From: Billgrantia tianxiuensis
GTDB lineage: Bacteria > Pseudomonadota > Gammaproteobacteria > Pseudomonadales > Halomonadaceae
Assembly: GCF_009834345.1 (NCBI RefSeq)
Contig: NZ_CP035042.1
Coordinates: 1,984,001-2,048,000 of the forward strand
Reading direction: 5' to 3'
Length of the DNA stretch: 64,000 nt
The notes beneath the pieces are model-generated. The model saw only the letters and a program-made list of their open reading frames with translations, was not told where the DNA came from and searched no databases. Positions 55,874-64,000 of the stretch are shown piece after piece (position 1 is the stretch's first letter; each line of letters begins with the position of its first letter). A program made the position numbers and the translations under genes.

Positions 55874-56477
55874 ATGCGCCATGAAGGCAAACTCACCGAG
55901 TGGAACGACGCCAAGGGCTTCGGCTTCATCACGCCAGCCGCAGGCGGCCCTCGTGTATTCGTTCATATCAGCGCCTTTCCCCGCGATGGGCGCCGGCCGC
56001 AAGTGAACGAACCGATCACCTACCACCTGACACACGACAGCCAGAACAGACCGAAAGCCCAGAAGGCGGGCTACCTGAAAGCGGCACGTCATTCACCCCC
56101 TCGCTCCAGAGGGCTGATGTTGGCATGCGCCATCGCCGCTGCGTTCTTCGCACTCCTGGCAGCCTTGAGCGCTCTAGGCCACATGCCAATGCAGCTCATA
56201 GCGGCATACGCACTGCACCTTCGCCATGTACGGCATCGACAAAGCCGCAGCAGGGAAGGGCAGAAGGCGCACTCCAGAAGCCATGTTGCTCTTCGCAGGC
56301 TTGATCGGTGGCTGGCCCGGCGCGCTGGTAGCGCAGCGGCTGTTTCGGCACAAAACCAGAAAGCAGCCGTTTCAGGCGATATTTTGGTGTGGGGTGGTGG
56401 TGAATTGTGGGGTGGTTGGGTGGCTGGTTTATTCGGATGAGGCAGCGAGGCTTTCGGCTGGTTTTGGGATCGGTTAA
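55874..56477 (+). pseudogene. Cold-shock-domain/DUF1294 membrane protein, frameshifted
   Basis: The N-terminal part (MRHEGKLTEWNDAKGFGFITP..RVFVHISAFPRDG) is a cold-shock-like nucleic-acid-binding domain with RNP1 (KGFGFI) and RNP2 (VFVHI). The C-terminal part is a DUF1294 membrane domain (YGIDKAAAGKGRRRTPEAML and GGWPGALVAQRLFRHKTRK). The frames join near 56210-56218, not in a C/G run, so two missing or one extra base is needed. The restored product is about 200 residues with three helices. The gene is the last one of ordinary composition before the AT-rich cassette array. Confidence 0.8.
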
Positions 56478-56639
56478 CAGTAACCAAGTCTGTTGTGCAA
56501 AAGGTATTCGGCTGCATGCCAGTCTATTAGAGAACCTACATACAGTATATTGGTCCCGGCAAAACGCGCAAACGCGAATTCTGCATAGGTGGCAGAGCTA
56601 TACTTAGGAGCTAAAAAATCAACGAGTTGCAAGGAATGA

Positions 56640-56669
56640 TGCGCGTCAGATAATATTGTTGAACGCGCA
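56640..56669 (+). repeat. Inverted repeat left of the cassette array
   Basis: TGCGCGT (56640-56646) and ACGCGCA (56663-56669) are inverted arms around 16 AT-rich bases. They lie 40 bases before the inferred first recombination point and might belong to an attI-like site or a terminator. Confidence 0.35.
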
Positions 56670-56708
56670 GGATGTTCATTGAATATCAGGACGTGCAGTC
56701 CAATCACT

Positions 56709-56715
56709 GTTATGC
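56709..56715 (+). other. Left recombination boundary of cassette 1 (GTTATGC)
   Basis: GTTATGC is a GTTRRRY-like integron core site and is the exact complement of the R'' box (GCATAAC, 58509-58515) of attC1. In an inserted cassette the first seven bases must be complementary to the R'' box at its end, so cassette 1 starts between 56709 and 56710. The sequence to the left lacks attC-type arms and might be a relic attI site or another cassette junction. Confidence 0.65.
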
Positions 56716-56734
56716 CCAAAGGAACTGACGATCA

Positions 56735-58492
56735 ATGAATCAAGATTGGATTCTTCAAAAAAAGGAAACTCGCCGGACTTTTTCAAAGTCTACTTGGGTG
56801 CCTTTGAGAGCATCAATTAACGATGAAAAAGGAAACTGCAAATATATAGGGCACGTTGGTGAGTACTTTGGTTGTGGTTCTGTAGCATTTCCTCCGGAGC
56901 ACAGAGAAATAGCAGAAAAAACTAGCTGGAGTGACATTGGGATTGGTTGTACCCCTCAACCTTATGCATATGAAGATGGCTATTATTCTACAATTGAACA
57001 GTACCAATGGAATGACAAAGAACCAATCGGAATCCATCTTATATTTGAGCACCCTCAACCTGTAGTTGGCGGAAGTTTATGGATATTGAATCCTGACTTA
57101 GTAGTAGCGCTTCGTCTTATAAAAGAGGGAAGTAATTGGGTAAGGCCAGAAGAGAATTTTGTAGTAGTAGCTCGGGAGGTTCTCGATGAAAAAGGGGAAC
57201 AGCGCCTGATCGAAATAAAAAGAGAGTTTCTTCTCGACTATTTGGCGGCTAGAAACTTATCTCTCAGGCTATCGTACTATCGACAAAGAGTTGAAAACGT
57301 ACCGACACTTGAAAATAGCGAATATGCTGGCCTGGAAGACCACCAAGAAGAAAGGGATGGCGGCCGATATGAACTACTTATTCAAAATTTGAATGATGTA
57401 TTTGGCGGTAGTTGGGCAATGTTTCGTGCTTGGCGCACAGAAGTAGACGAAGAGGAAGACGCTCCTGTAATGGGGCCCGAAACAAACGAAAATACTGATT
57501 ATGAAAAGTCTGAAGGAAACAAGTCCGGTTATGATGGTGTACGGGTGGAAGGAGAATTTTGGCGGGATGAATGGATTGAGCACCAAGGCATAAGCAAACG
57601 CGTTAGAGGGGACGCTGATACAAATCTACCTCAATTTATAGTCGAAACAGATAGTACACGCATCGCATCATCTGAGCTAAACAATGAAGACATTGGAAGG
57701 TGGCTGTGGTTCCGTTCAAGTATTGTAAATGAACTGTTGGGGCTTCGAGGCTTCTCACTTGAATGGTATACAGCCGAAACAGGTTCTATTCACTCAACGT
57801 CCGGTTATCGAATTCACTTTGGAGTGAACTCAGCGGATTTCATTACAGTATATGCTTATGACATCGCCCGTCTCCCTTCATGGGAACAGCACTTATGGGC
57901 CGCACATAATGCAGTCCCAGAGGGTAAGGTTTCCAGTGAGTTGTTAGATTCTCAAGTTAAGGCTCAACCCGCATCTACACATGCAGTAGAGGCGTTACTT
58001 TTTGAAGTAATGAGCATGCTGGAGAATGGATTTAAGCAAGAGTTTAATGTTTCTCTTTTCTCACATGATATAGACCGTAAAGAAGCCTTAAAGAAAATCT
58101 CCAGATTCGAAAGTAAAGATCAGGCGTCATTGCTAAGGCTAGCAAAAGAAATTGTACGCGTTTTCTCTGACCGGCTTAATGTCAAAGAGTTGCGGGCGTT
58201 ATCAGTACATGCGAATAAGGATAAACTTGGCTCAAACAAACTACTGCAAGACATACTATCCCGGAAGGTTGGAGATGCTGCTGCTCGTAAAGTCTTTGGT
58301 CCAATTGTAGGTGCTTATGATATGCGATTAGGTGATGCACACCCGACAAGTTCAAAAATCGGAGAAGCCTTAGAGCTTGCCGGAATTGACACTGAAAATT
58401 CATATCTAAGGCAAGGGCAACAATTGATTTCCAATGTTGGGCAGTCAATTTGGTGGATTGGTAAGATGATGTTTGAAGATCCTAAAAAATGA
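56735..58492 (+). CDS. Cassette 1: large protein of unknown function
   Basis: A 585-residue protein that I do not recognise. It has no signal peptide or membrane segment. The N-terminal third is beta/aromatic-rich (residues 1-200), the middle has an acidic low-complexity part (about 225-265, DEEEDAPVMGPETNENTDYE), and the C-terminal third is helical with repeated Lys/Glu and an AYDMRLGDAHPTSS motif. The size is unusual, since cassettes mostly carry short genes. AAGGA precedes the ATG at 56735. The stop is 16 bases before attC1. The high A/T codon use agrees with the rest of the array but not with the host flank. Confidence 0.6.
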   Translation: MNQDWILQKKETRRTFSKSTWVPLRASINDEKGNCKYIGHVGEYFGCGSVAFPPEHREIAEKTSWSDIGIGCTPQPYAYEDGYYSTIEQYQWNDKEPIGIHLIFEHPQPVVGGSLWILNPDLVVALRLIKEGSNWVRPEENFVVVAREVLDEKGEQRLIEIKREFLLDYLAARNLSLRLSYYRQRVENVPTLENSEYAGLEDHQEERDGGRYELLIQNLNDVFGGSWAMFRAWRTEVDEEEDAPVMGPETNENTDYEKSEGNKSGYDGVRVEGEFWRDEWIEHQGISKRVRGDADTNLPQFIVETDSTRIASSELNNEDIGRWLWFRSSIVNELLGLRGFSLEWYTAETGSIHSTSGYRIHFGVNSADFITVYAYDIARLPSWEQHLWAAHNAVPEGKVSSELLDSQVKAQPASTHAVEALLFEVMSMLENGFKQEFNVSLFSHDIDRKEALKKISRFESKDQASLLRLAKEIVRVFSDRLNVKELRALSVHANKDKLGSNKLLQDILSRKVGDAAARKVFGPIVGAYDMRLGDAHPTSSKIGEALELAGIDTENSYLRQGQQLISNVGQSIWWIGKMMFEDPKK

Positions 58493-58508
58493 TGAGGATC
58501 GTAAGGTG

Positions 58509-58580
58509 GCATAACAAGGCGCTGCTGTCGGACAAATTTTCCGCTGCGCTCCAAATCTGCCGCAGAGCGCGGCGTTAAGT
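58509..58580 (+). repeat. attC site 1
   Basis: The R'' box GCATAAC is at 58509-58515 and the R' box GTTAAGT at 58574-58580. Between them are imperfect complementary arms (GCGCTGCTGTCGGACAAATT against AAATCTGCCGCAGAGCGC) about a short loop. Extrahelical mismatches are visible, as required for single-strand recognition by IntI. 72 bases in length. Confidence 0.88.
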
Positions 58581-58600
58581 TTACAAAGAAGTAATGGTAT

Positions 58601-59629
58601 ATGTTTAAGACGAAGCCTACATGGGAACAGTTTGAAGACCTCGTTCGAAGAATTCTTGAAGCGAACAATTTTCGCATCCAGTCACATTTGCCTCGAGGTG
58701 ACTCCGGCTTCGACTTTCTTGGTATTTTGGGAAATGAACAATGGGCAATTGAAGTCAAATATTACAGGACAGCAAGAGCTCGCCCTTCGCTAATAGAGTC
58801 TGCCGCAGCCCGTGTAGTTAACAACGGCTTGCGTGGTGGTGCTAAGAAAGGAATGTTAGTCATATCAAGTGTTTTACCAACAGAAATGCGGCTTGTTCTG
58901 GAAGATAAATTCAGTATTTCTTTCGCAGATAGAACTGACCTGAGAAATTATGCTTCAGTTTCTCCGGCTCTTGCGGAAGAGCTAGATTCTTTACTTGAAG
59001 CAGATCCAGACTTGGTTCGTGATTTGTCCGACCGAAAGGAGGCACCCTGGAATAGAAGCCGCTCTATAAATGAACGGCAGGCGCCCCCGTCTGATACCAA
59101 AGGCACAGAGCTGTGCACTAGATTGAAAGATACAAAACGTGGGAAGCAAGCATGGTCTCAGTATGAAGAGCTTTGTATAGATGTCCTTAAGTACTTATTT
59201 CCGAACGACTTGCAAGGCTGGCATGCCCAGAAAAGAACAGATGATGGGGTAAGTAGGTACGACTTTGTTTGTCGAGTCCGTCCGATGACCGAGTTCTGGA
59301 GCTTCTTAGTGGAGCACCTTAATAGCAGGTACGTAATATTTGAATTTAAAAATTATGTAGGGAAAATAAAGCAAGGTCAGGTGCTAACAACCGAAAAATA
59401 CCTTCTTGAACGAGGCTTGAGAAAAGTTGCAATTGTCCTCACTCGGGCTGGAGCTGATAAGAACGCCTTCAAAATGATGCAGGGCGCAATGCGTGAGTAC
59501 GGGAAACTTATTTTAGTTGTTGACGATAAAAGCCTGTGCAGGATGCTCCATATGAAAGAGCAAGGAGAGGACCCAACTGATTATTTATTTGAGCTGGCTG
59601 ACGATTTCTTGTTATCGTTGCCAAGGTGA
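58601..59629 (+). CDS. Cassette 2: protein with two PD-(D/E)XK nuclease-like domains
   Basis: A 342-residue cytosolic protein. The first domain (about 5-115) resembles Mrr-type restriction endonucleases: helix WEQFEDLVRRILEANNF, then Asp38 in SGFDFLGILG, and Glu51-Val-Lys53 in WAIEVKYY. A linker (130-180) leads to a second domain (about 185-340) with helix YEELCIDVLKYLF, Asp221 in RYDFVCRV and Glu248-Phe-Lys250 in VIFEFKNY. Both show the D-x(n)-ExK pattern. Such nucleases cleave DNA, commonly modified or foreign DNA, so an anti-phage function is plausible but unproven. The ATG is at 58601. Confidence 0.72.
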   Translation: MFKTKPTWEQFEDLVRRILEANNFRIQSHLPRGDSGFDFLGILGNEQWAIEVKYYRTARARPSLIESAAARVVNNGLRGGAKKGMLVISSVLPTEMRLVLEDKFSISFADRTDLRNYASVSPALAEELDSLLEADPDLVRDLSDRKEAPWNRSRSINERQAPPSDTKGTELCTRLKDTKRGKQAWSQYEELCIDVLKYLFPNDLQGWHAQKRTDDGVSRYDFVCRVRPMTEFWSFLVEHLNSRYVIFEFKNYVGKIKQGQVLTTEKYLLERGLRKVAIVLTRAGADKNAFKMMQGAMREYGKLILVVDDKSLCRMLHMKEQGEDPTDYLFELADDFLLSLPR

Positions 59630-59630
59630 A

Positions 59631-59701
59631 ATTTAACAATTAGGTGAAGCCGACCGAAACTACGCTGCGCTGCGTCTCGGCGGCTTACTATGGCGTTAGA
59701 G
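59631..59701 (+). repeat. attC site 2
   Basis: R'' ATTTAAC (59631-59637) and R' GTTAGAG (59695-59701). Inner arms AAGCCGACCGA and CTCGGCGGCTT pair imperfectly. R'' is one base from the exact complement of the preceding R' (GTTAAGT). 71 bases in length; it starts right after the gene 2 stop. Confidence 0.85.
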
Positions 59702-59707
59702 GAAAGC

Positions 59708-60355
59708 ATGAATTCGAAGATTTGGTTGAAAAACATAGATCGAATTTCCTTATGCTCAGCGAGCGTTGACTACAAAGCTAAGAAAGCATTCAAGGCTGTA
59801 TTAAATTGGATTGTGAAAAACAATTATAGGGGTGGGTGTCATGATACGTCGGCGGCACTCCACATACTTCTTGAAGAGCAAGGAGTCAAGTCTAGCCTTT
59901 GTATTGGGGAAGTTAAAATTGATGAACAAAGCTTCTTTGATCACTCATGGGTGACAGTAGATGACTTGGTTCTTGATGCATCGGTATGCATGCCAAATAT
60001 TGGAGGCTACGCTTTCCCACCAGTGTTTGCATCGAAAGATCTCCTTACTCTGGATGTTCCCCAAATTTACTACGGTGAACGATCTCCAGTGGGGTTCGAT
60101 AGCGAGGCAAAATTTGTGAGCACCGCAAGCTTGTCTGAATATTCTACAGGCCATCTAGATGATCCAAACAAGCTGTGGAGCCTAACTAAAACACTAGCTA
60201 AGGAAGCAGGTGTCAAAGTTAATGCTGGGAAGTTGAAGGATCAGTACGGTGCAGTCATGCAGACATGTAGTCTGCGCCTAAATCCTCTAACAAATAATTG
60301 CAACGGATCAATTTACGCTGCGCTTCAATTGCCCGCTGAATTGGGCGTTAGCTGA
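59708..60355 (+). CDS. Cassette 3: transglutaminase/arylamine-acetyltransferase-like Cys-His-Asp protein
   Basis: A 215-residue protein. Cys44 in NYRGGCHDTSAALHILLEEQ, His79 in FFDHSWVTVDD and Asp90 in LVLDASV follow the order and spacing of the Cys-His-Asp triad of the papain-like transglutaminase/NAT superfamily. No name can be assigned. The ATG at 59708 (AGAGGAAAG upstream) is preferred to an ATG at 59690 within attC2. The stop codon lies just past the R' box of attC3, so about 23 C-terminal residues are encoded by the recombination site itself. Confidence 0.65.
   Translation: MNSKIWLKNIDRISLCSASVDYKAKKAFKAVLNWIVKNNYRGGCHDTSAALHILLEEQGVKSSLCIGEVKIDEQSFFDHSWVTVDDLVLDASVCMPNIGGYAFPPVFASKDLLTLDVPQIYYGERSPVGFDSEAKFVSTASLSEYSTGHLDDPNKLWSLTKTLAKEAGVKVNAGKLKDQYGAVMQTCSLRLNPLTNNCNGSIYAALQLPAELGVS
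60285..60353 (+). repeat. attC site 3, inside the 3' end of the gene
   Basis: R'' CTCTAAC (60285-60291) is the exact complement of the cassette's first box GTTAGAG. R' GTTAGCT is at 60347-60353. Inner arms TTGCAACGG..CAATTTACGC and GCGCTTCAATTGCCCGCTGAA pair imperfectly. 69 bases; it overlaps the upstream gene's last codons. Confidence 0.85.
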
Positions 60356-60375
60356 AATACTCTATGGGGCACAGA

Positions 60376-60795
60376 ATGAACTGGTACTGGATAATTGGCA
60401 TTGCAATAGCGCTAGCCCTGATCTATCGCCTTATTTCCGAAAAGCCGAAATCAGTAGCCTACGAAATTGGGCGAAGAATCAATGTGAAGCCACATTTCAT
60501 TGAGAACATGATCACTGCAATGGGTTCTAAGCGAGGTCTGATGTTTGTAGATCAGATGTCTCGCGGTGGCGATGAGTTTATTGAGAAAGGTGTGTATACT
60601 TTTATCGTCTTCGAGATTTCAAAGAACGACCATGCGGAGAATATCAAGTGGTGGAAGTCTCGACTCAAAGAGTCCGGCTTCGACCCACAAATGAATGCGG
60701 AGAGAGCAGAGGTTGCTTTTACGTATCTCAAAGATGCCGGAGCTGATCATTCTCAGATCCCCAATTTTATCAATGTGTACAACTCAATCAGCTAA
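60376..60795 (+). CDS. Cassette 4: small N-terminally membrane-anchored protein
   Basis: A 139-residue protein with one N-terminal membrane segment (YWIIGIAIALALIYRLI, residues 3-19) and a mostly helical, charged cytoplasmic part ending in NFINVYNSIS. No family recognised. I prefer ATG at 60376, which has GGGG at suitable distance, over ATG at 60364. Its stop codon lies within the R'' box of attC4, so cassette and gene are exactly coterminal. Confidence 0.6.
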   Translation: MNWYWIIGIAIALALIYRLISEKPKSVAYEIGRRINVKPHFIENMITAMGSKRGLMFVDQMSRGGDEFIEKGVYTFIVFEISKNDHAENIKWWKSRLKESGFDPQMNAERAEVAFTYLKDAGADHSQIPNFINVYNSIS

Positions 60796-60878
60796 CAAAG
60801 CGGTGTTGTCGCGGCACAAAATCGAGATGCGGGGATGCCTTCGCTGGCGCTCCGGCGCCCCAAACCGCGGCGTTAGAC
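60790..60878 (+). repeat. attC site 4
   Basis: R'' AGCTAAC (60790-60796) is the exact complement of the preceding R' (GTTAGCT). R' GTTAGAC is at 60872-60878. Arms GCGGTGTTGTCGCGGC and GCGCCCCAAACCGCGG pair imperfectly about a longer central loop. 89 bases. Confidence 0.85.
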
Positions 60879-60888
60879 TAAAAATCAT

Positions 60889-61278
60889 ATGAACTATTAT
60901 CTTCTAGCTCTATTTTTGGCACCGCCGTTTCTGAGAATATCCAGAAAGACACGGGTTGAAAAGATGCGTAAAGTTCTAACAGAGGGTCACAGACCAAGTT
61001 GCATCACAGTTGGCGGTGAGCCAATTCCCATCTCTGGACTTCCTCCAGAGTGGGAGTCGGCGCAGAAAAGGGCATATACTCCAGCTCACTCAGTTATGTA
61101 TTTGTTCAACGTCACGCGCTATGGCGGTCAAGGCAAAGGCGAACGCGTATGTACGCTGGGCGAGCTTGAGAAGTGGCTAGCCGATGAGAAGGATGTGCGC
61201 AAGTATTACCTCGGAGCTGTCGCTCTGGGCTTTATTGCTATTACTTTCATTGCCTTGCGTTTCGTTACAACAGGCTAA
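60889..61278 (+). CDS. Cassette 5: small protein with two terminal membrane segments
   Basis: A 129-residue protein with hydrophobic segments at both ends (YYLLALFLAPPFL and YLGAVALGFIAITFIALRF). The centre contains YTPAHSVMYLFNVTRYGGQG and a CTLGELEKWL segment. No family recognised. The stop overlaps attC5 by a few bases. ATG at 60889 is ten bases after the attC4 R' box; no strong ribosome site is seen. Confidence 0.55.
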   Translation: MNYYLLALFLAPPFLRISRKTRVEKMRKVLTEGHRPSCITVGGEPIPISGLPPEWESAQKRAYTPAHSVMYLFNVTRYGGQGKGERVCTLGELEKWLADEKDVRKYYLGAVALGFIAITFIALRFVTTG

Positions 61279-61365
61279 CAATCGCATACATTCGGACAGA
61301 AGAAAGAGCCGTTCCTCGTTCCTCGTCGCCCTGCTTCCTTCTGCCGATGATGTCAGACGCTATGT
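61273..61365 (+). repeat. attC site 5, with degenerate R' box
   Basis: R'' GGCTAAC (61273-61279) matches the preceding R' (GTTAGAC) except one base. The arms ATTCGGACAGAAG and CTTCTGCCGAT pair closely. The box at equal distance on the other side is GCTATGT (61359-61365) instead of GTTATGT. The changed base is inside the core GTT, so this junction may recombine poorly. 93 bases. Confidence 0.65.
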
Positions 61366-61402
61366 GCCAGCTTTATCTGAAAGAACATAGGAAGATTGAA
61401 GC

Positions 61403-61972
61403 GTGATACCAGAATTAAATCAATCAGGAGTGCTGCCGCCTTTTATACCCGAGCAAGGGCCAACCGACCCTGCTGGTATGGCTCCCTATAAGACTACGAT
61501 AACAGAGTTCATTCATCGTTATGCACACACTTTTGAGAGGAGAGCTATACTTAGAGGGCTGCTGGATTATCGTAGAAAGCTTAAGAGTATTGGAGTTCGT
61601 AACGGCTTCCAGTGGCTCGATGGTAGCTTTGTCGAGGATGTGGAGTTAAACCGTGGCCGACCTCCATCAGATGTGGATATAGTCACATTCGCTTTGAGGC
61701 CTACGAATGATTTAGAGTTATGGAAGAAATTGGTCTATGAAAACACAGATCTTTTTTTGCCCAATGAAGCGAAGCAGAAATACTGTTGCGATGCGTATTT
61801 CGTTGACCTAAACACGCATCCTATACATGTAGTGAGCAATACTCGGTACTGGTTTGGATTGTTTTCACACCAGCGCGAATCTTACCTTTGGAAAGGAATG
61901 GTGGAAATACCGATTGATTGCAGTGACGATGAGGCGCTAGAGATTTTGGATAGGGAGGCAGGTAATGCCTAA
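61403..61972 (+). CDS. Cassette 6, gene A: nucleotidyltransferase-like protein (DUF6932-type)
   Basis: A 189-residue protein. Gly74-Ser75 in QWLDGSFVEDVE and Asp90-Val-Asp92 in RPPSDVDIVTF fit the minimal nucleotidyltransferase motif (G-S-x(n)-D-h-D). HPIHVVSNTRYWFGLFSHQRES is also found in this family. Such proteins transfer NMPs to small molecules, RNA or proteins, and some act as toxins. The start is GTG at 61403 (GGAAG upstream). It overlaps gene B by eight bases, so the two are coupled. Confidence 0.62.
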   Translation: MIPELNQSGVLPPFIPEQGPTDPAGMAPYKTTITEFIHRYAHTFERRAILRGLLDYRRKLKSIGVRNGFQWLDGSFVEDVELNRGRPPSDVDIVTFALRPTNDLELWKKLVYENTDLFLPNEAKQKYCCDAYFVDLNTHPIHVVSNTRYWFGLFSHQRESYLWKGMVEIPIDCSDDEALEILDREAGNA

Positions 61973-62900
61973 GAAGCTCAATGTTGACAGCCTATCTTCT
62001 GAAATTAACACTCTTAATGAGCTGCTTTCTAGTGCGCGTCAATCTGGCGATTTCGTAGGTGAGATGCAGCTCGAGCATCGAATTTCTGAATTATCGAGTA
62101 AATTAGAATTATTGAAAGAGGGCTCAGTCTCTGATAACAGCGCGAGCGTTGCTCTATTTTTTGGTGGGCAGCCTGTGCTTGGTTCAAAAGGAATTGCTGC
62201 AGAATTTGCTGGAACAGCATTAGAGCAGTTTCAGGATCTTATCGCTAAAGTTTTCGCCAACAATGAAGTCGGCGATTTAGGTGAAAGAGGGAAAGTGCCA
62301 CTCAAGGCAAGCTCAGAGCTAATGGTTACTGGCTTGGCAAGGGGTTCTTTTGGTTTTGTTCTTGATGAAATGAGCGAACAAATTCAAATGGAATCTTCAC
62401 AGTTATCGCATGTTATAGACAAGGCTGCACTTCTTCTTCGGGATTCTGCTGCCCAGGACGATGCGGTTTTTGAGTCTATTTTAGAGGAATTGGAGCCGAG
62501 AACGCTAATCGCTCTCAGGGATTTTTTTTCCAACTTGGATTCAAGTAAAGCAACTATAAGGGTTGTTGAAAAAGAGCTGGATTTTACTCTTGATGGTCCT
62601 TCTATCCATAGGGCGAAAGTTAGAACGGAAGCTACAAGCATTGAAGAAAAAACAATTGAAATTGAAGGAACTCTGGTAGGATTTTTGCCAGAGCACCGAA
62701 AATTTGAACTGGCTGACAATGCAGGAAAACTTTTCTATGGCTCCGCTACTAAAGAGGCTGTTGATCAGTTTACAAAAGCTACTGACAGCGTGATCGGAAA
62801 AAAATGTCTAATTAAAGTCACGGTTAAAACTGTTGCTCCACTAAACAGACCGCCAAGAGAAGTGGTTCGTTTGATAGAGTTTCTCCGGTTTGGAGAATAA
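61965..62900 (+). CDS. Cassette 6, gene B: unknown protein coupled to the nucleotidyltransferase
   Basis: A 311-residue soluble protein I do not recognise. The N-terminus is a likely coiled coil (LSSEINTLNELLSSARQSGD..HRISELSSKLELL, about residues 8-50). A middle helical part precedes a C-terminal beta region (KTIEIEGTLVGFLPEHRKFEL, then AGKLFYGSATKEAV). Gene order and overlap suggest partner of gene A, possibly its antitoxin, regulator or target. The ATG is at 61965. Confidence 0.6.
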   Translation: MPKKLNVDSLSSEINTLNELLSSARQSGDFVGEMQLEHRISELSSKLELLKEGSVSDNSASVALFFGGQPVLGSKGIAAEFAGTALEQFQDLIAKVFANNEVGDLGERGKVPLKASSELMVTGLARGSFGFVLDEMSEQIQMESSQLSHVIDKAALLLRDSAAQDDAVFESILEELEPRTLIALRDFFSNLDSSKATIRVVEKELDFTLDGPSIHRAKVRTEATSIEEKTIEIEGTLVGFLPEHRKFELADNAGKLFYGSATKEAVDQFTKATDSVIGKKCLIKVTVKTVAPLNRPPREVVRLIEFLRFGE

Positions 62901-62902
62901 AC

Positions 62903-62963
62903 ACATAAAAATCGCGTCAATTATGGCGCTTGCAAACTCGAGCCTATTACGCGGGCGTTATAT
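62903..62963 (+). repeat. attC site 6, degenerate R'' box
   Basis: R' GTTATAT (62957-62963) is clear. R'' is ACATAAA (62903-62909), agreeing at five of seven bases with the complement of the cassette's opening GCTATGT. Arms ATCGCGTCAATTATGGCGC and CTCGAGCCTATTACGCGG pair imperfectly. 61 bases. Confidence 0.7.
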
Positions 62964-62983
62964 TTTTTTCCCGGGGATCAGTA

Positions 62984-63913
62984 TTGAAACAATTGTGTAA
63001 ATACATGAATGAACCAAGAGATATCTTTAGTGATGGGTTCATTCGACTATCTCAGCCAGCAGTTTTGAATGACCCATTCGAGGCTTCATTCTGCGAGAAT
63101 AGCTTAGAAGAATTAGCCGGCCATTTTAATTATCCAACGGCTCAGGATCCAGAATTCGGCGATTTGAGCTTTTCTCAGTACATCGAAATGCGGATGCATA
63201 ACATCGGTGTTATATACTTTTCCGAAAACAAAGAGGATCTATTGATGTGGGCTCATTATGCAAACGAGCATAAGGGGCTTGCTATCGGCACAGTGTCTAT
63301 TCCTGGCAATGGGTCCATTTTCCATAACCTGTTCAGATCGGATGCTTTGATAAATTCTTCTTGGGGCGAGGTATACTCACCATTTGACGGAATTCCTAAG
63401 CCGGTTTCCTATAGGAAAGGGCTTCGATACAGAAATGACAAATTCGACTATGACTACTCGAATATCTCAGTGGAAGGTGCTAATAGAATACTCTATGAAG
63501 TATTTATGCGAAAAAGTGACGAATGCATTTATGAACAAGAGCACCGAGTGGTCCTTAGGTTAAAACAGTCAGACCGAGTGGTTCTTGAATGTATTGACCT
63601 TATGCCTAACGAGCGTGTTAGAGACCGAGTTTCGTCTGTAGAGTGGTCTTTTATTGATCCGAATAGTGGCCGAGCTGATATTAATCTTATGGGCATTCAA
63701 GATGATGTTGAAAGGGTATCGCTTTCAATGCATTTGGCGAAGTTAAGTCGTAATCCCAATGTGGTGTATTTGATGAAGTTATCATCTAGCAGCATCAATA
63801 ATTGCTTGTTTGGACTTAGGTCGAAACTTGAAAAGGAGGATGTCATTGGAGGTACGCATCCTCTACAGGTATCTAGATGTCTGGAAAGCAAGAAAGAATC
63901 AGGGTTGCTATAG
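62984..63913 (+). CDS. Cassette 7: DUF2971-family protein
   Basis: A 309-residue protein whose opening KYMNEPRDIFSDGFIRLSQPAVLNDPFEAS and later VIYFSENKEDLLMWAHYANEHKGLAIG are the DUF2971 signature. The function is unknown; some members occur in defence loci. The start is assigned to TTG at 62984 (GGGG upstream), giving the complete domain; the alternative ATG at 63005 removes seven residues. An ATG at 62930 lies inside attC6 and is unlikely. Confidence 0.7.
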   Translation: MKQLCKYMNEPRDIFSDGFIRLSQPAVLNDPFEASFCENSLEELAGHFNYPTAQDPEFGDLSFSQYIEMRMHNIGVIYFSENKEDLLMWAHYANEHKGLAIGTVSIPGNGSIFHNLFRSDALINSSWGEVYSPFDGIPKPVSYRKGLRYRNDKFDYDYSNISVEGANRILYEVFMRKSDECIYEQEHRVVLRLKQSDRVVLECIDLMPNERVRDRVSSVEWSFIDPNSGRADINLMGIQDDVERVSLSMHLAKLSRNPNVVYLMKLSSSSINNCLFGLRSKLEKEDVIGGTHPLQVSRCLESKKESGLL

Positions 63914-63929
63914 CCTTGAGTGCCAAGAG

Positions 63930-64000
63930 ATATAACAAGGCCAAGCACAGCGACAGCATTCTCGTTTCAGCTTCGCCTACACTACAAAGCCGCTTGTGCT
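63930..64000 (+). repeat. attC site 7, truncated by the window end
   Basis: R'' ATATAAC (63930-63936) is the exact complement of the preceding R' box (GTTATAT), so it closes cassette 7. The opening arm AAGCACAGCGACAGC and the inverted GCTTGTGCT at the end of the window agree with an attC whose R' box lies outside. The array therefore continues. Confidence 0.8.

Follow-up and report, generated by a model that had tools for sequence, protein, structure and literature searches.

An attI-headed cassette array lacking an integrase gene

The window analysed here, a stretch of 64,000 nucleotides from Billgrantia tianxiuensis (bases 1984001-2048000 of a chromosome of 5.0 Mb assembled as a single contig; Billgrantia/Halomonas group), ends within an integron cassette array that has no integrase gene (intI) beside it. 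The array lies between a cold-shock/DUF1294 gene on its left (55874-56477, plus strand; DUF1294 named by eye), itself outside the array, and a gene for an HTH-AAA-TPR regulator that begins at 67057 on its right; loci with this cold-shock gene are termed CSD loci in the following. From 56710 to about 67020, the array comprises ten attC sites and 11 counted open reading frames (ORFs), with three of the attC cores broken (those of attC5, attC6 and attC10). Every attC site lies where one ORF finishes and ahead of the following ORF or at its start, overlapping by about 70 bases at most. The G+C content of the array is 43% compared with 62-63% in the flanks. Coordinates follow the window numbering unless stated otherwise; G000 denotes the present genome and other G numbers the genomes of relatives.

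The array is headed by an attI site without an intI gene to its left (56537-56709, plus strand, 173 bp). This segment is ca. 70-90% identical to the one that adjoins intact intI genes in relatives, and 56537-56711 aligns with the segment adjoining intI in G014, taken as B. campisalis. Across the genus, the attI element was matched in 60 of 90 genomes, in some partially and often several times per genome. We aligned 25 chosen copies, seven of which adjoin intI (six intact, that of G048 split). CTG/TT is common to 24 of them, in G048 after a short repeat, and beyond this point the sequences diverge; the sole copy without TT is that at the CSD locus of G074. The shared CTG/TT point is the predicted attI crossover, which places the G/TT cut between 56709 and 56710. 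The preliminary description of this DNA had the array start at 56710, exactly the crossover point, while overlooking attI itself. Homology of the left flank ends at 56709-56716 in eight CSD loci and earlier in the remaining ones compared.

attC sites detected by an independent covariance model

To detect attC sites, a covariance model (R1) was built from 47 sites, all from arrays of other genomes; the alignment of the present array's own sites was excluded, so that the array serves as an independent test. The 47 sites derive from 54 passes of a pattern filter with length limits that demanded TAACA, GTTA and well-paired arms, seven having been dropped by hand. Paired cells make up 95.9% of this training set compared with at most 40.6% in slid versions, and double-change cells number 259 compared with 84.5 in shuffles. 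R1 E-values are rough.

Within the window, R1 finds seven sites, all on the plus strand: attC1 (58509-58580, 72 nt, 86.1 bits), attC2 (59631-59701, 71 nt, 54.2 bits), which overlaps the mechanical start of the third ORF, attC3 (60285-60353, 69 nt, 56.9 bits) within the 3' end of that ORF, attC4 (60790-60878, 89 nt, 28.8 bits), attC5 (61273-61365, 93 nt, 29.9 bits), attC6 (62903-62963, 61 nt, 19.5 bits, E 0.07) and attC7 (63930-64013, cut at 64000 by the window end; 84 nt and 41.6 bits as a full site). The R' core of attC5 reads GCT rather than GTT, and the R'' core of attC6 AAA rather than AAC. Beyond the window follow, in the same array, the partial and weak attC8 (65043-65091, 17.6 bits, E 0.22), attC9 (66359-66430, 47.4 bits) and the last site, the weak and degenerate attC10 (66935-67012, 15.7 bits, E 0.63). 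The window together with the next 75 kb (L008-L011) yields no further R1 match at E <= 1. In the whole genome, 16 sites at E <= 0.1 fall in four places, seven of them in the present array; dispersed repeats are thereby ruled out. These results confirm the preliminary description, which listed no positions of single sites and had proposed seven same-strand attC elements of 61-93 bases and AT-rich cassettes in an integrase-less array beside ordinary chromosomal genes: the seven sites recovered share strand and length range, and the next 75 kb adds only three sites of the same array.

Other approaches were less informative. A simple pattern scan gave nine candidates in the array against a shuffle mean of 3.3 and maximum of 9 (30 shuffles), which is unconvincing alone, and single-site minimum-energy folds do not consistently produce the attC hairpin. 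Two home-made pattern scores were dropped as noisy in favour of the covariance model. Rfam at gathering thresholds returned no match, a result not counted as evidence; Rfam is not known to contain an attC family.

Absence of intI from the locus and its remnants elsewhere

In the whole genome, the integrase model TIGR02249 gives seven matches, none over the cut-off, and PF00589 identifies five tyrosine recombinases. The earlier statement that the window contains no IntI thus holds for the window, for the DNA beyond 64000 and for the entire genome at this cut-off. Two of the seven matches are intI scraps at 1373-1377 kb, ca. 660 kb from the array, with one attC nearby; this remnant is 93% identical over 43 amino acids to intact IntI. 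The place in question is a decayed integron (chromosome positions 1373214-1377583) with two intI remnants, one attC and no attI match. The same chromosome carries two more attI-headed attC arrays (2341308-2349084 and 2354139-2358650), which contain short intI pieces by blastn and cargo including cupin, DUF4238 and DUF6998 proteins.

Among the 90 genomes of the genus, 27 have a TIGR02249 match over the cut-off, one of which (G089) contains an internal stop. Other genomes carry broken intI genes with differing lesions. One deletion junction is common to G043, G008 and G052, with a similar one in G084, and another to G006 and G017; these junctions lie in the stretches L126, L128, L132 and L130 and, as a second set, L136 and L144. 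Because they are common to groups of species, loss of the integrase probably happened before some of the species separated.

The preliminary description had left open whether this is a CALIN (a cluster of attC sites lacking an integron integrase) or the start of a larger array. The array does continue past 64000, to about 67020 and ten attC sites, and it is a CALIN by definition: the ten R1 sites (two only at E 0.22 and 0.63) are clustered on one strand and exceed the minimum of two, TIGR02249 is nowhere over the cut-off in the genome, and tblastn gives no integrase trace at the locus. Yet it is headed by an attI. Compared with a complete chromosomal integron, it lacks the intI gene, whereas a putative attI with G|TT crossover is present by homology, and attC sites with paired arms and extrahelical bases by homology and structure.

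The same locus in related species

The cold-shock gene was matched in 21 of 90 genomes and the regulator gene in 24 of 90. We examined the CSD locus in 18 of the 21, representing 18 species (G042, G047 and G086 were left out); several loci sit at contig ends, and in G006, G024 and G041 the locus is split over contigs, the tblastn run covering only the cold-shock side there. Full-length attI heads 12 of the 18 loci (G000, G006, G009, G021, G024, G025, G041, G043, G057, G072, G074, G089), three have a truncated or partial attI (G008, G049, G052) and three have none (G064, G068, G084). At least two R1 attC matches (E up to 0.3; up to 1 for G000) occur on the cold-shock side in 16 of 18 loci and none in G052 and G064, and all attC matches at CSD loci lie on the strand of attI or of the cold-shock gene. 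In G064, a short junction links the cold-shock and regulator genes and the array is absent.

A tblastn search with five IntI proteins revealed no intI trace at any of the 18 CSD loci. At 17 comparison loci, the same run found intI remnants in eight and none in nine; in some of the nine, blastn does detect short stretches of intI, or a diverged start of intI is visible by eye left of attI. Among the 18 species, an uninterrupted intI over the cut-off exists only in G041, taken as B. kenyensis, at a place other than the CSD locus; this genome carries four copies of attI.

Related species have the same attI followed by different cassettes. The present array shares no stretch of at least 180 bp (E <= 1e-10) with 19 array stretches from 16 genomes. 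Pairwise blastn of all 20 stretches from 17 genomes produced 11 rows of at least 180 bp between different genomes, most of which correspond to parts of the regulator gene or to the tail past the last attC. G025 and G084 have a segment in common (80%), which terminates in the final attC match of either array, and G041 and G068 share 1.5 kb in the distal half, starting directly after an attC in both. Since the shared pieces are distal and the attI-proximal cassettes differ, the arrays appear polar, as would be expected for entry of cassettes at attI.

Among the CSD-locus genomes included in a tree of the regulator, identity of the right flank is 84-96%. In this tree, the present genome falls within nine close rows (support 87/96), and support is good for only four of the 17 inner branches. 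Extra copies of the regulator's 5' end (window equivalent 67055-67550) occur in or near the arrays of relatives (L063, L065, L066, L069-L072). In G009, G052, G021 and G001, such copies are cut at 67547-67550, as though the right junction had been duplicated long ago.

Origin of the array

Most likely, with a probability of about 0.6 in our estimate, an integrase encoded elsewhere filled the array in trans and the array is now frozen. An ancestor would have set, or kept, an attI and array without intI between the cold-shock gene and the AAA regulator gene. IntI from another chromosomal locus, perhaps also from incoming integrons, may then have inserted cassettes at attI in trans, with new cassettes accumulating at the attI end. 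As integrase genes decayed in this genome, the array would have turned into a fixed reservoir of genes, probably of defence type, that are expressed from promoters within it or in attI, and some of its attC cores would be decaying. As to how the intI-less state arose, we lean towards a moved attI and array rather than an old deletion of a local intI, because no intI scrap was found at any of the 18 loci. A more tentative extension is that of a distributed integron in the Billgrantia group, in which several intI-free attI platforms at different places in the chromosome, each with its own array, are served in trans by an integrase from another locus and outlast it.

Several points weigh against filling in trans followed by freezing. 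Trans filling is inferred, and only one of the 18 species has an intact intI now; an old deletion of a former local intI would leave an identical picture, and whole arrays could be exchanged via their flanks. The trace-free state is not special to the CSD locus, given that nine of 17 comparison loci were likewise without intI by tblastn, and we accordingly rejected it as a unique mark of this locus. The pairing figure of 95.9% for the attC training set is inflated by the choice of sites partly on arm pairing, and the 15 of 20 pairs with double changes were equalled by 75 of 500 shuffles. Broken cores number seven of 63 in CSD arrays versus three of 71 beside intact intI (Fisher p 0.19), an insignificant excess, and core decay was therefore discarded as a sign of freezing. 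This count has three of nine counted sites of the present array broken; it omits the partial attC8, all hits on the CSD-locus contigs of G041, a genome with intact intI, and two weak matches (L063 10634 and L079 4170). Finally, 56400-56800 contains two weak promoter consensus matches versus 0.7 expected, and no promoter was identified in attI.

A complete integron may instead have stood here, its intI removed in situ up to the promoter in the clade ancestor and later turnover being due to other integrases or array exchange. Loss of intI is common in the group, with differing lesions elsewhere and some junctions shared by species, and across CSD loci the left edge falls a short way upstream of where intI begins, in almost the same position, as a single ancient deletion would produce. 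However, intI often decays piecemeal elsewhere, leaving scraps at eight of 17 comparison loci (tblastn) versus none of 18 here, and we consider local deletion the less likely reading. Less probable still is an exchange of whole arrays with donors possessing an active integron, through homologous recombination within the conserved flanks: the loci are orthologous, their flanks conserved, and species without an intact integrase still differ in content, but distal shared pieces with differing attI-proximal cassettes agree better with cassettes being inserted one after another at attI. Resolution of the flank tree is too weak to judge array exchange. Insertion at an attG, a non-canonical genomic site, is not known to bring an attI. 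That an off-target integrase placed the cassettes at such a site is thus highly improbable for an array headed by a 173-bp attI, even if the available text on Xanthomonas reports conserved CALIN loci away from intI and discusses attG (PMC12444791).

Relation to known integron systems

One of the closest known systems is the Xanthomonas chromosomal integron, for which the text accessible to us describes an ancestral integron, repeated and lineage-specific intI inactivation, retained arrays, conserved secondary CALIN loci and trans-mobilisation of CALINs by functional IntI (PMC12444791). Unlike here, attI is not described at those secondary loci in the parts available, and the arrays there are said to be stabler after intI inactivation, whereas arrays of the present type differ among close species. 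The locus resembles a CALIN as classed by IntegronFinder (at least two same-strand attC sites, intI absent nearby) and differs from it in the recognisable attI at its head. It also resembles a sedentary chromosomal integron in its attI, attC family and polarity, the same attI and attC types standing beside intact intI in relatives, and is unlike one in that intI is absent at the locus and none is over the cut-off genome-wide. In delta-attI cassettes of mobile integrons, as far as the consulted sections go, attI pieces form the downstream site of one cassette (PMC12901181); they too have attI away from its intI, but here attI heads a chromosomal array. The consulted part of a study of vent microbes lists a CALIN in Halomonas sulfidaeris SST4, a member of the same broad group, and suggests that CALINs may derive from integrons by loss of the integrase; it gives the IntegronFinder type only, with no attI, locus or cassettes described in that part (PMC10295459). 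A term search of a study of hypersaline integrons, in the text available, found neither Halomonas nor Billgrantia (PMC7923331). No other paper on Halomonas or Billgrantia and integrons was found in the open literature (subscription papers lay outside the scope), and judging by titles and the start of abstracts we found none on attI-headed CALINs.

The new aspect is the attI that heads the array; CALINs and conserved secondary CALIN loci are already in print. According to the accessible text of its description, IntegronFinder detects no attI outside class 1 (PMC9024848), so that it does not distinguish attI-headed loci from bare clusters, and detection of attI outside class 1 would divide CALINs into these two groups. 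A distributed integron, if true, would represent a kind of platform intermediate between a complete integron and a CALIN, invisible to the present classification because attI is not searched for. The present locus bears on how CALINs originate and on why arrays go on changing in genomes that have no integrase. With the same attI at one orthologous locus in many close species, nearly all lacking an intact integrase, with differing cassettes and with one intact intI in a relative, trans service, local loss and exchange can be tested against each other.

Cassette cargo

Pfam domains over the cut-off occur in six of 11 ORFs (Mrr_cat, Transglut_core3, DUF1198, DUF6932, DUF2971 and HD with HD_assoc). 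The earlier description of the cargo as mostly without known function is thus partly right, three of these six matching only domains of unknown function. PADLOC models match cassettes 2, 6 (ORF a), 7, 8 (weakly) and 9, and apart from dGTPase and a weak ZorE these are mostly candidate (PDC) models. Several cassettes look defence-like. They add to the candidate genes for defence, among them a two-gene module without a name that another genus also has.

All cassette ORFs in the window are on the plus strand. The ORF of cassette 1 (56735-58492) encodes 585 amino acids without a Pfam match. In eight aligned sequences, R531 and H536 are invariant, an R-x4-H pattern that we take to fit the HEPN ribonuclease motif. 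Homologues occur in 13 plasmid records and in two of 293 genomes of the order, the present one included. One is flanked by the R gene and the M gene of a type I restriction-modification system, and another, at 37% identity, follows an attC in the G089 array beside its interrupted intI. Cassette 2 (58601-59629) encodes a protein with an Mrr_cat nuclease domain and a C-terminal part like PDC-M36A. Cassette 3 (59690-60355) matches Transglut_core3, with lasso_biosyn_B2 at 28.4 bits, below its cut-off of 33; cassette 4 (60364-60795) matches DUF1198; and cassette 5 (60889-61278) encodes 129 amino acids of no family.

Cassette 6 contains two overlapping ORFs, a (61403-61972; DUF6932, PDC-M63A-like) and b (61965-62900; 311 amino acids, no family), which adjoin in three other records. 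Two genomes from a different genus of the order have the same pair at 84-88% identity, with attC matches nearby, and a conjugative Paraburkholderia plasmid carries it at 36-50%. This two-gene module (61403-62900) is a candidate defence or toxin-antitoxin pair. Cassette 7 (62975-63913; start picked manually, the mechanical ORF running from 62930) matches DUF2971 and is PDC-S31-like. Beyond the window follow an HNH-like ORF (64051-65001; HNH_3 below the Pfam cut-off), a dGTPase ORF (65143-66351) and a 140-residue ORF of no family (66509-66931). The dGTPase ORF scores 348.6 bits with TIGR01353 and E 1.2e-108 with the PADLOC dGTPase model; the anti-phage dGTPase model NF041026 gives 263.4 bits, below its cut-off of 400.

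Flanking genes

The cold-shock/DUF1294 gene is apparently frameshifted near 56215 relative to its counterparts, mostly open frames of ca. 200 amino acids; a sequencing error is possible. To the right of the array lies a very long VgrG/RHS-like ORF (named by eye; L008:13705-19380, 1891 amino acids), a 54-base stretch of which is repeated 3.5 kb further right.

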